Source: Betaproteobacteria bacterium UKL13-2 (GTDB taxonomy: Bacteria; Pseudomonadota; Gammaproteobacteria; Burkholderiales; Usitatibacteraceae). From it: a stretch of DNA of 64,000 nt. The notes beneath the pieces were generated by a model. The model worked only from the letters and a program-made list of their open reading frames with translations, made no database searches and had not been told where the DNA came from. Location: assembly GCA_001602455.1 (NCBI GenBank), contig CP012157.1, positions 243,733-307,732 on the forward strand, written 5' to 3'. Shown piece by piece: positions 8,284-10,725 of the stretch (within the stretch, counting starts at the first letter, position 1; each line of letters begins with the position of its first letter). Both the position numbers and the translations under genes were made by a program.

Positions 8284-8563
8284 TTTAACGCAGCGCAACA
8301 AGCACCTGCACCCCGGCACGCTGCGCCTGTCGATCGGCTCACCACAGTTTGCGCGCCACCATCATTTGCTGACGCAAAGCCGGGGCTAAAGAGCGCGGCA
8401 GCATGACCACCCGGTCTTTGTTGTCTTTGGCCCCTCGAACAATGATGACATGGCGGTCAAAGTCAATAACCTTGACGCGCAGGCGAAGACCCTCCATCAA
8501 ACGCATGCCCGTGCCCGTGCCCGTGCCATAAAGCAAGCGGGCCAGCAGTGCCTCAGTGCCCTG
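8284..8563 (-). pseudogene. Decayed integron-type integrase (tyrosine recombinase) fragment
   Basis: Minus-strand reading gives [12 protein letters not shown], a stretch [19 protein letters not shown], then [20 protein letters not shown] and [14 protein letters not shown] stop codon follows, and the same frame continues [12 protein letters not shown] to a second stop. The first part covers the box I region with its arginine; the part after the stop resembles the start of the extra segment particular to IntI integrases. Only about 90 of the usual 320-340 residues remain. A GTGCCC triplication has added extra Gly-Thr pairs, and a stop lies upstream. Orientation opposite to the cassettes to the right is what an integron shows. 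Recognition is by memory of the family. Confidence 0.75.
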
Positions 8564-8868
8564 TCATTGCGCCACCCGCATGGGCAGACTAACGAACATT
8601 AAAAAGCACCCAATAGACATAAGATTTCTCGGTATTGAAGCTATAGTGGCGATAATTTGAGCACCCCCGTGTCAGCACCCCCGTCGCTGATCGAGCAGGC
8701 GGGTGGACTGCGAGGAAGGGGCACCGGGTTTCATGGCAAATTTATACTTGGTTATTTGTTCGATATACGTGCGAGCAAGCCAGTTTGCAAGCGGCTTGCA
8801 GCTATTTCATCCAAAAGATGTATCGACTGTGCCCGGATGTATCCACCGGGTTTTGCGGTCTACATTAC
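8564..8868. other. Non-coding stretch between integrase relic and first cassette
   Basis: No gene is supported here. In an intact integron this region would hold the integrase N-terminus, its promoter, the cassette promoter and attI. The integrase N-terminus cannot be recognised, so deletion or replacement is likely. ORFs seen here do not resemble a known family. Confidence 0.4.
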
Positions 8869-8875: not shown

Positions 8876-8900
8876 TTCACAAACAACCATGGAGGTACGC

Positions 8901-9698
8901 ATGAGTCAGAAAACTTGCTTCGTCATCGCGCCGATTGGAGAGGCTGAGTCGGAAACGAGGAAGCGGTCCGACCAAGTGTTGAAACACGTCATATGCCCCG
9001 CTGCCTCTGCATGCGGCTACAAGGCAATCCGTGCGGATCAGATCTCCGAGCCGGGGATGATTACCAGTCAAGTAATTCAACACATAGTCGACGATCAGTT
9101 GGTCATAGCAGACTTAACCGATAGAAACCCGAATGTATTCTATGAGTTGGCTATTCGGCATGCAATACGCAAACCACTTGTACAGCTGATCCGAAAGGGT
9201 GAGCAGATACCATTTGACGTAGCCGGAACCCGCACTATTCACGTTGATCACCGCGACCTAGATAGCGTCGAGGAGGCGAAAAAGGAGATCGCGTCGCAGA
9301 TCAGCGCTCTCGAGAAGGACTCGACTAAGCTCGAAACGCCAATCTCCGTATCGCTTGACCTTCAAATGCTTCGACAAAGCGACAACCCGGAGCAACGGTC
9401 GCTGGCAGATGTACTCTCAGTGGTAAGTGAACTCCGATCTTCGGTAGCCAGTATCGAGAAGCGCCTGGAGAGCCCAGATGCGCTTATGTCACCACAGATG
9501 ATGGCCGAGCTGAAGGAACGTCGCGACATAAGATCTCACCGCTCACGCGCTGCGATGATGGAACTGCGACATATGGTCCATGAGGTCCATGAACTATTGC
9601 TGGAGGACAAAGCGCGCCCTCCAAAGGCTAAAGAATCGCAGAAGGAAATGCTCATGCGAATAGAGCACTTGTTGATGGCCCTCGACCGCGATTTCTAG
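8901..9698 (+). CDS. Cassette-borne TIR/nucleoside-deoxyribosyltransferase-like protein
   Basis: 265 residues. The start is fixed by GGAGGT five bases before the ATG at 8901; an ATG at 8889 overlaps that site. The N-terminal 140 residues (CFVIAPIG, then ISEPGMITSQVIQHI, then VIADLTDRNPNVFYELAIRH) form an alpha/beta fold like nucleotide-sugar-cleaving TIR-like or nucleoside 2-deoxyribosyltransferase-like proteins; the Asp-Leu-Thr and NPNVFYELA segments are the family hallmark I recognise. The C-terminal part is charged, helical and probably coiled coil. It is the sole gene of an integron cassette. A role in defence or nucleotide metabolism is possible but not shown; the catalytic residue is not certain. 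Confidence 0.6.
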   Translation: MSQKTCFVIAPIGEAESETRKRSDQVLKHVICPAASACGYKAIRADQISEPGMITSQVIQHIVDDQLVIADLTDRNPNVFYELAIRHAIRKPLVQLIRKGEQIPFDVAGTRTIHVDHRDLDSVEEAKKEIASQISALEKDSTKLETPISVSLDLQMLRQSDNPEQRSLADVLSVVSELRSSVASIEKRLESPDALMSPQMMAELKERRDIRSHRSRAAMMELRHMVHEVHELLLEDKARPPKAKESQKEMLMRIEHLLMALDRDF

Positions 9699-9702
9699 TG
9701 AA

Positions 9703-9831
9703 ACCTAACCCCTCGTTCAACCGGACCCGCTACGGCAAGCGCCGTAAGCCCGGCCTGAGGCACATGGTGCATCATCTCAGGCCGGGCTTACCGCGCTTGC
9801 CTCCGCGGGCCGGTTAACTCAAACGTTAGGC
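9703..9831 (+). other. attC recombination site
   Basis: 129 bp between cores ACCTAAC (9703) and GTTAGGC (9825). The outer arms CGTTCAACCGG and CCGGTTAACTCAAACG have the form of well-known cassette attC sites. The centre is an almost perfect hairpin of AAGCCCGGCCTGAG and CTCAGGCCGGGCTT. It begins just after the stop codon of the first cassette gene. Confidence 0.88.
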
Positions 9832-9883
9832 ATCAAAAAACACGTCCAGTGCGCGCGGTACCGTGCTGCGGTACCAAGGCCCT

Positions 9884-10456
9884 ATGAGGCGTGCGCATCA
9901 AAAGACCATCGAAGCGGTGTTCGCCCACTCCACCAGTGCAAACATTGCCTGGAAGGACATCGGAGCGCTTCTGGTTGGCCTTGGTGCGGAAGTCAGCGAG
10001 CGCGAAGCAAGTCGCGTTGCGATCTTTCTCTTCAATGAAGTCCGCGTCTTCCACAGACCGCACCCGTCACCGAAGACAGACAAAGGTGCTGTGGTCTCTG
10101 TGAAGAAGTGGCTAGAGCAACACGGAGTGAAGAGTAAGGATATGCGTTACGCAACCGTCATCGAAAAAGCAGAAGGCAACTTCTCGGCTTATGTCCCGGA
10201 TCTGCCTGGCTGCGTCGCCACCGGTGCAACGGTCGAAGAGGTGGAAATGGAAATCCGCGAGGCCATTACGTTTCATGTTGAAGGGCTACACGAAGATGGT
10301 TTGCTGGTTCCGCCGGGTGCCAGCCAGGTTGAGTATGTCGAAGTCGGCGACAGATCGCCCGGCGACGTTTTCGGCTATCCGGATGACGATCTCAAGGCCG
10401 TGTACGTTAAAGGCAAGTGGCAGTTTTCTCACAAAGACGGCAAGCCCTATGAGTGA
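9884..10456 (+). CDS. HicA toxin-HicB antitoxin in-frame fusion
   Basis: 190 residues from ATG 9884 (AAGG five bases upstream; a GTG at 9863 is possible). Residues 1-86 are HicA-like (MRRAHQKTIEAVF, then EVRVFHRPHPSPKTDKGAV), the mRNA-interferase toxin with a dsRNA-binding fold. Residue 87 is a Met in AAGGATATG that opens a complete HicB (MRYATVIEKAEGNFSAYVPD, DLPGCVATGATVEEVE, FHVEGLHEDG) with the partial RNase H-like fold of the antitoxin. Normally these are two adjacent genes; here no stop separates them. HicB could still be made alone by internal initiation at 10142. The C-terminal 40 residues extend past the usual HicB end. It lies in an integron cassette behind the attC at 9703-9831. 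Confidence 0.82.
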   Translation: MRRAHQKTIEAVFAHSTSANIAWKDIGALLVGLGAEVSEREASRVAIFLFNEVRVFHRPHPSPKTDKGAVVSVKKWLEQHGVKSKDMRYATVIEKAEGNFSAYVPDLPGCVATGATVEEVEMEIREAITFHVEGLHEDGLLVPPGASQVEYVEVGDRSPGDVFGYPDDDLKAVYVKGKWQFSHKDGKPYE

Positions 10457-10474
10457 ACAGGGCTCGACGCACCC

Positions 10475-10510
10475 AAGGGCTAACTCTTGAATCGAGGGGA
10501 CGCCTTGTGG
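10475..10510 (+). other. Truncated attC, left half only
   Basis: GGCTAACTCTTGAATCGAGGGGACGCC just after the hicAB stop has the form of an attC left arm (core ending TAAC, then the usual TTGAATCGAGGGG). No matching right arm with GTTRRRY follows before the mobile repeat at 10580. The cassette array is broken here. Confidence 0.5.
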
Positions 10511-10579
10511 CTGGCCTTATGTCAAACTCCAAGCTGCGGCGTCTGATCGTCAGGAGGCCAAGCAGCGCAACAACGACAC

Positions 10580-10725
10580 GGGAACTTCTAAAAACCGTCA
10601 CGAGCGGGTGAAGTTGGCAGTGAGGAGGTTGGCAAACGCGGGACACATACCCAGTGTACGGCGACGAATTTGACCAACTCGGGAACTGACAGATTCGCCC
10701 GCGCAGTAGGTTTTTAGAGGTTCTC
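10580..10725. repeat. Mobile inverted-end repeat, copy 1
   Basis: 146 bp bounded by GGGAACTTCTAAAAACC and GGTTTTTAGAGGTTCTC. The interior has the shared blocks GAGCGGGTGAAGTTGGCAGT, GACACATACCCAGTGTACGG and ATTCGCCCGCGCAGTAGG. Other copies lie at 20733-20867, 33967-34139 and 60764-60897. It has no coding capacity. Confidence 0.85.

Follow-up and report, generated by a model that had tools for sequence, protein, structure and literature searches.

The stretch of DNA analyzed here (the window) is 64,000 nucleotides long and comes from Betaproteobacteria bacterium UKL13-2 (contig CP012157.1, positions 243,733 to 307,732 of the forward strand). On the plus strand, at positions 9884 to 10456, it holds an open frame of 190 codons without an internal stop, in which a HicA toxin module and a HicB antitoxin module are both recognized, as the first-pass annotation had reported. 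The frame starts at the ATG at which the relatives of its HicA begin, and an alternative GTG-started frame extends 21 bases farther upstream. This gene, referred to below as the fusion gene, consists of three parts in one frame, namely, a HicA, a short HicB, and the C-terminal end of a Cupin_2 protein. It is present as a single copy in its own genome, with an attC site and the remnant of an integron integrase upstream of it (Table 1).

A Pfam search of the fusion protein placed HicB_lk_antitox well above its cut-off (Table 1) and the HicA family (PF07927) at residues 23 to 81, with 25.5 bits against a cut-off of 27 when the whole protein was scanned. Neither NCBIfam (E values up to 1) nor PADLOC (E values up to 0.1) gave a match. 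Searches of 28 genomes of the family and 399 genomes of the order returned three groups of matches, HicA-like at residues 1 to 84, HicB-like at about residues 85 to 156, and a third at about residues 143 to 189, which, in the matches inspected, consists of the C-terminal ends of cupins. HicA-like matches were found in the order genomes only, and the window holds the sole one among the 28 family genomes searched.

The two halves of the toxin-antitoxin (TA) fusion belong to different kinds of HicAB. The HicA half is 91% identical to its nearest relative (L061) and 83 to 89% identical to those at L062 to L066, the nearest being taken from 80 loci retained of 118 that encode a relative in a scan of genome contigs with residues 1 to 100 as the query. 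As a rule, a hicA of this type overlaps by ATGA with the gene for a long HicB, which mostly has 110 to 122 residues. A long HicB lies directly behind HicA in 91 of 94 loci of this type (some places were fetched twice, from two collections), and a short HicB does so in none. The three exceptions are two contig ends with 20 and 42 bases remaining (L067 and L076) and one divergent HicA (L152). At the fusion gene, no cognate toxin and antitoxin stand side by side, the two kinds joined there being paired in 0 of the 94 loci. One distant long HicB with 42% identity is encoded in the same genome, far from the fusion locus (C1:1342901-1343218). The implied origin of the gene, an ordinary hicAB pair that had lost the stop between its members, is ruled out because the halves derive from different pairs and the cognate antitoxin gene is gone.

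The HicB half is up to 77% identical, over 69 residues, to HicBs of 70 amino acids. Its relatives have exactly this length in 30 of 34 rows, and they end near the residue at which the fusion protein enters its tail. A classical HicA with the GSH motif stands beside the short HicB in 22 of the 34 rows (in front of it in 21 and behind it in one, with two places counted twice; one further row, L049, was flagged falsely) and the HicA type of the window in none; in the remaining rows, the HicA is broken, a different gene is present, or the sequence is too short. The HicB part also matches the PDB HicB chains 4p78/4p7d, 6g1c, and 6g1n/6g26. At four loci (L004, L050, L056, and L058), the short HicB lies behind what appears to be a broken piece of a classical hicA only, as an antitoxin without a toxin. 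The first-pass annotation had also suggested that free HicB might be made from the internal ATG at 10142. This ATG is in frame and exactly at the start position of the HicB relatives, and the AAGGAT motif is present, but the motif abuts the ATG directly, and the production of free HicB is weakly supported. At the usual spacing, the Shine-Dalgarno pairing amounts to -2.4 kcal/mol (-3.0 at the HicA start), which is weaker than in each of the 32 HicB relatives for which it was determined (range, -8.5 to -3.5 kcal/mol) and is attained by 35% of the 972 ATGs in the window. A GGAG about 14 bases upstream gives -6.1 kcal/mol and was not counted as a placed site.

The third part had been taken for a possible novel C-terminal tail, a reading that is ruled out by its matches to the ends of cupins. 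Residues 149 to 189 are 58.5 to 63.6% identical, over 41 to 44 residues, to the last residues of Cupin_2 proteins from bacteria of the same family, and an example of such a parent protein (L027:6049-6528) scores 54.2 bits to Cupin_2. The tail is 72% identical to the cupin piece at L015 over the 25 residues left there. With the whole cupin as the query, the genome of UKL13-2 yielded nothing beyond the tail of the fusion gene at E values up to 0.001. The sister genome G013 holds the same cupin gene whole (the L027 gene above); in G012, of the same genus, such a gene is reduced to its last 26 codons (L026:8600-8724), which lie some 40 bases behind an attC-like GTTAGGC core.

At the first joint, the window tracks the hicA relatives to their last codons and then resembles, by eye, the stretch that precedes the short hicB genes, in a frame different from that of the classical hicA stop. 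At the second joint, several codons of the hicB end resemble the cupin gene, and the crossover may therefore lie anywhere within 10328 to 10345. The DNA of the parents is similar at both joints (by eye), and we infer that recombination made them. Both joints would be in frame by chance in about one of nine cases, and in-frame joints therefore need no selection.

The surroundings of the fusion gene are those of an integron in decay. The integrase remnant (G000:C1:252020-252301) scores 84.2 bits to TIGR02249 against a cut-off of 265, and an open piece of it (8339-8536) matches integron integrase. Integrases over the cut-off were found in 6 of the 13 genomes of the genus, three of these six with inner stops, and the genome of UKL13-2 holds the remnant only. 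The attC site in front of the fusion cassette is the only place in the 64-kb window that scores at least 8 in a home-made attC scan, and the bottom strand of 9700 to 9834 folds with -54.9 kcal/mol (z of -11.1), with none of 200 shuffled sequences folding equally well. A stricter first scan (score of at least 10) had missed this site, and the scan is rough; it missed attC-like sites seen by eye (behind hicB, L005), so that counts based on it are lower bounds. The site occurs once in the genome, the match on the reverse strand being the site itself. After the stop of the fusion gene, positions 10478 to 10505 (plus strand) hold what we take to be a possible half attC site, on its by-eye resemblance to the core consensus; it is unproven, and the stretch from 10470 to 10600 folds no better than shuffled sequences (z of 0.66, with 147 of 200 as good).

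Both kinds of hicAB occur as cassettes elsewhere. The pair of the long-HicB kind lies between two attC sites at L062 and L071 and is followed by one at L075, and an attC site lies behind the short HicB at L003/L031, a single place of one genome. The window and the L062 cassette are alike, by eye, between attC and hicA. The fusion gene shows the upstream attC site, the nearby integrase (as a remnant), and the lack of an attC site between joined genes that are expected of a fused cassette. The cassette upstream of it (8889-9698, plus strand) carries a gene for 269 amino acids that matches a PADLOC TIR effector profile (E value of 8.4e-10) and no Pfam family over the cut-off.

Table 1. Features of the fusion gene and its surroundings (positions in the window)
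Feature	Position	Strand	Remarks
HicA module, residues 1-83	9884..10132	+	Type normally partnered by a long HicB
Linker, three codons	10133..10141	+	Replaces the stop and start of the cognate hicB; contains AAGGAT
HicB module, residues 87-154	10142..10345	+	Short type (PF15919), non-cognate; Pfam match at residues 89-152, 44.2 bits (cut-off 27)
Tail, residues 149-190	10328..10453	+	C-terminal end of a Cupin_2 protein; first six codons common to the HicB end
Promoter/operator of the lost hicAB pair, putative	9857..9877	+	Two GGTACC repeats 13 bases apart
attC separating the fusion cassette from the upstream one	9703..9831	+	Fold and home-made attC scan
Integron integrase remnant	8288..8569	-	TIGR02249 positions 113-202 of 315; two inner stops

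The putative operator in front of the fusion gene has counterparts among the hicA relatives. In the window, the second GGTACC repeat overlaps a -10-like hexamer, TACCAA (9872-9877). A GTAC occurs within the final 24 bases in 45 of 83 distinct upstream stretches of relatives; in 42 of the 45 it is preceded by another, exactly 13 bases upstream, and the nearer one lies mostly 13 bases before the start codon. The hexamer ends in AT in 37 of the 45 and in AA, as in the window, in 3. The position of a -10-like hexamer so close to the ATG suggests that these relatives (L061 to L086 and others) may have leaderless messages and a HicB operator.

Sequence and profile searches of the PDB found no relative of this HicA type, and its active site is therefore not placeable on a structure. 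The type (9884-10132, L061-L140) seems to have R where the classical HicA has the histidine of the GSH motif, and H57 is invariant and H60 nearly so among 32 sequences. The correspondence of R44 to the classical histidine is a lead only, since the score of a profile comparison between this type and classical HicA was not significant (probability of 0.4%). The type may use another catalytic residue. The nearest relative, L061, has ACG and not ATG at the usual hicA start (L061:1424-1426), so that its HicA, too, may be damaged or may begin elsewhere.

The HicA half of the fusion protein is changed at residues that hardly vary elsewhere. It carries the replacements P16S, E27G, and G42A at positions where the relatives have P in 74 of 74, E in 71 of 74, and G in 74 of 74 sequences. 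At 33 near-invariant HicA columns, compared with 77 relatives (79 minus two with an inner stop), it departs at four, which ranks second among the 78 sequences, 42 of which depart at none. When the modules were scanned alike, its Pfam HicA score was 27.8 bits (residues 1 to 83), against 34.3 to 43.0 bits in seven relatives, of which L054 was the lowest. In the HicB half, none of 28 relatives shares T91, H136, or G145. Since the divergence from L061, the window branch of hicA has accumulated 6 synonymous and 4 nonsynonymous changes and the L061 branch 9 and 2, respectively, a contrast that is at most a hint of relaxation. For HicB, the ratio of nonsynonymous to synonymous substitution rates (dN/dS) was 0.080, 0.084, and 0.178 in the three of eight comparisons that were not saturated.

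With moderate confidence, we read the fusion gene as a recent relic of fused cassettes in a decaying integron; its product would be silent or harmless and possibly self-neutral. Recombination at the extreme end of hicA would have removed the antitoxin gene from a hicAB cassette of the long-HicB type, and a short hicB from a classical hicAB pair would have been joined to hicA there. The end of this short hicB would have been joined to the end of a cupin gene across a stretch of similar sequence, both joints happening to preserve the frame, although the order of these events is our inference. As the integrase decayed, the arrangement would have become stuck. Toxicity would have been lost along the way; the protein, if made, is probably not an active toxin, because its toxin half is altered at nearly invariant residues and because selection would act against an active toxin that lacks the cognate antitoxin.

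Several observations weigh against such a relic. The attC site behind the fusion gene is at best a half site, and none of 12 cupin loci has an attC site behind the cupin gene; therefore, a cassette origin of the third piece is not shown. Among the relatives, 2 of 91 are flanked by an attC site upstream and 3 of 87 downstream, and the short HicB gives 2 of 33, most of them lying outside visible cassettes. The frame is still open along its whole length, the score of the HicA module scanned alone lies above the Pfam cut-off of 27, and L054 departs at five near-invariant columns, more than the window does. In addition, the dN/dS of HicA to L061 is 0.076 (6 nonsynonymous and 19 synonymous differences), so that most of the HicA divergence arose under constraint and any relaxation is recent or slight, and the contrast between the two branches is not significant (Fisher p of 0.36).

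The same observations bear on the alternative that the gene encodes a working, self-neutralized TA protein, in which the short HicB would cover HicA in cis until proteolysis or a phage signal freed the toxin. The open frame, the low dN/dS over most of the history of HicA, the retained operator repeats, and a HicA module just over the Pfam cut-off are all consistent with it. Release of this kind is reported for CapRel and EzeT and, in the passages on them, proposed for classes of fused HicAB; the published fused HicAB proteins include classes 11 to 13 (Gerdes 2024, PMC10865869), and some Class 12 proteins are said in passages of that paper to evolve under selection. However, the partners here are of kinds paired in none of the 94 loci, conserved HicA residues are changed, Pfam detects no DNA-binding domain in the fusion protein at E values up to 1, the tail is the broken end of a cupin, and the searches found no second genome with the fusion. 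For this gene, such a protein is unlikely.

At a similarly low or slightly lower probability, the cell has two separate neighboring genes, and an assembly error of one base in the length of the linker produced the apparent fusion. In the relatives, the classical hicA stop lies a few bases before the short hicB start, and the linker of the window resembles this stretch in another frame (by eye), so that a difference in its length could separate the genes. On the other hand, the assembly is a single contig of 3,387,087 bases with a completeness of 100, and the second joint, from HicB to the cupin tail, is independent of an error in the linker. Such an error would leave untouched the mismatch of partners, the absence of the cognate hicB, the foreign origin of the short hicB, and the cupin tail.

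It is improbable, too, that the integron made a new TA protein by domain shuffling, with the foreign short HicB acting in cis on a HicA whose kind seems to lack the GSH histidine, as part of a single-chain sensor or buffer. If it did, the kind of inhibitor would have changed and the DNA-binding domain would have been lost in one step, and the cupin tail may alter stability. Least probable is an antitoxin-only gene, in which the HicA half would be a dead leader and free short HicB with its cupin tail, started at the internal ATG, would act against a classical HicA elsewhere (anti-addiction); the position of that ATG and the strong Pfam match of the HicB half agree with it, but the Shine-Dalgarno pairing is weaker than in any of the 32 relatives measured, conserved HicB positions are changed, and the normal HicB end is lost.

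Searches for other fusions returned no second one-frame match of HicA and HicB among those listed in 28, 399, 369, or 12 genomes, in overlapping sets, of which the 399-genome result is limited to the matches listed and the 369- and 12-genome sets were searched at E values up to 1e-28; a fusion would have topped the match lists. The 12 sister species, several with incomplete genomes, held no fusion, and none was found among the 80 loci retained of 118 in the scan of genome contigs, although records very near the window may be absent from the searched sets. No match covering 80% of the query was found in 210 plasmid records (40 of the 210 listed) or in 20 phage records, and the five stretches of viral contigs that matched the pattern encode no relative. 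The candidates L149 (a Sinorhizobium plasmid) and L153 were rejected because their matches cross a stop; L175 (G275), L176, and L177 lack a HicA in frame with their HicB, and L178 consists of HicA only. At L150 (G256:C1:250700-252300), a frameshifted HicA of the same type runs into a long HicB in one open frame; it was rejected as a true fusion because the two are joined only through the frameshift inside HicA, which is either an error or another way of producing a fused frame.

The fusion gene suggests that cassette arrays can be a source of chimeric TA frames that join halves of two HicAB kinds. If the protein is active, HicA and HicB kinds would be exchangeable in one recombination step; if it is dead, an in-frame "fused TA" can be debris. 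For fusions found in a single genome, the cognate status of the halves should therefore be tested before a new TA class is named.

A HicAB pair on an integron cassette has been reported (PMC4909258), and a TA gene fusion in Xanthomonas oryzae is termed very rare in the passage that describes it (PMC4861877). Among the matches listed in a literature search, in which the locus name was not used, nothing was found on a HicA joined to a non-cognate HicB. In classes 11 to 13, as in the fusion gene, a single gene encodes a single polypeptide with both a HicA and a HicB domain (PMC10865869). However, in the passages describing them, Class 11 has HicA fused to a HicB with a C-terminal helix-turn-helix (HTH) or ribbon-helix-helix (RHH) domain, where the fusion gene has a cupin end, and classes 12 and 13 have the hicBA order, whereas HicA comes first here. 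The fusion gene differs from all three in its short kind of HicB, its cupin end, and its halves from different HicAB kinds, and by those passages no member of these classes matches its order and make-up. Slr1999 of Synechocystis 6803 likewise has HicA and HicB domains in one protein, is listed as AT/T, and is said in the passage concerned to have no fused homolog in other organisms (PMC4963859); it is set beside the fusion gene by description only. EzeT and CapRel, as described in parts of PMC4826407 and PMC10865869, also combine toxin and antitoxin in one chain but, unlike the fusion gene, are active proteins with other toxin activities (a kinase and tRNA pyrophosphorylation). Fused cassettes that arise through loss of attC are described, in the passages on them, as a rare integron product (PMC4670013), and the example of blaGES-1/aacA4 given there is, like the fusion gene, joined without an attC site in between; both coding regions of blaGES-1/aacA4 are whole, whereas the fusion gene unites pieces of three genes in one frame beside a broken integrase.
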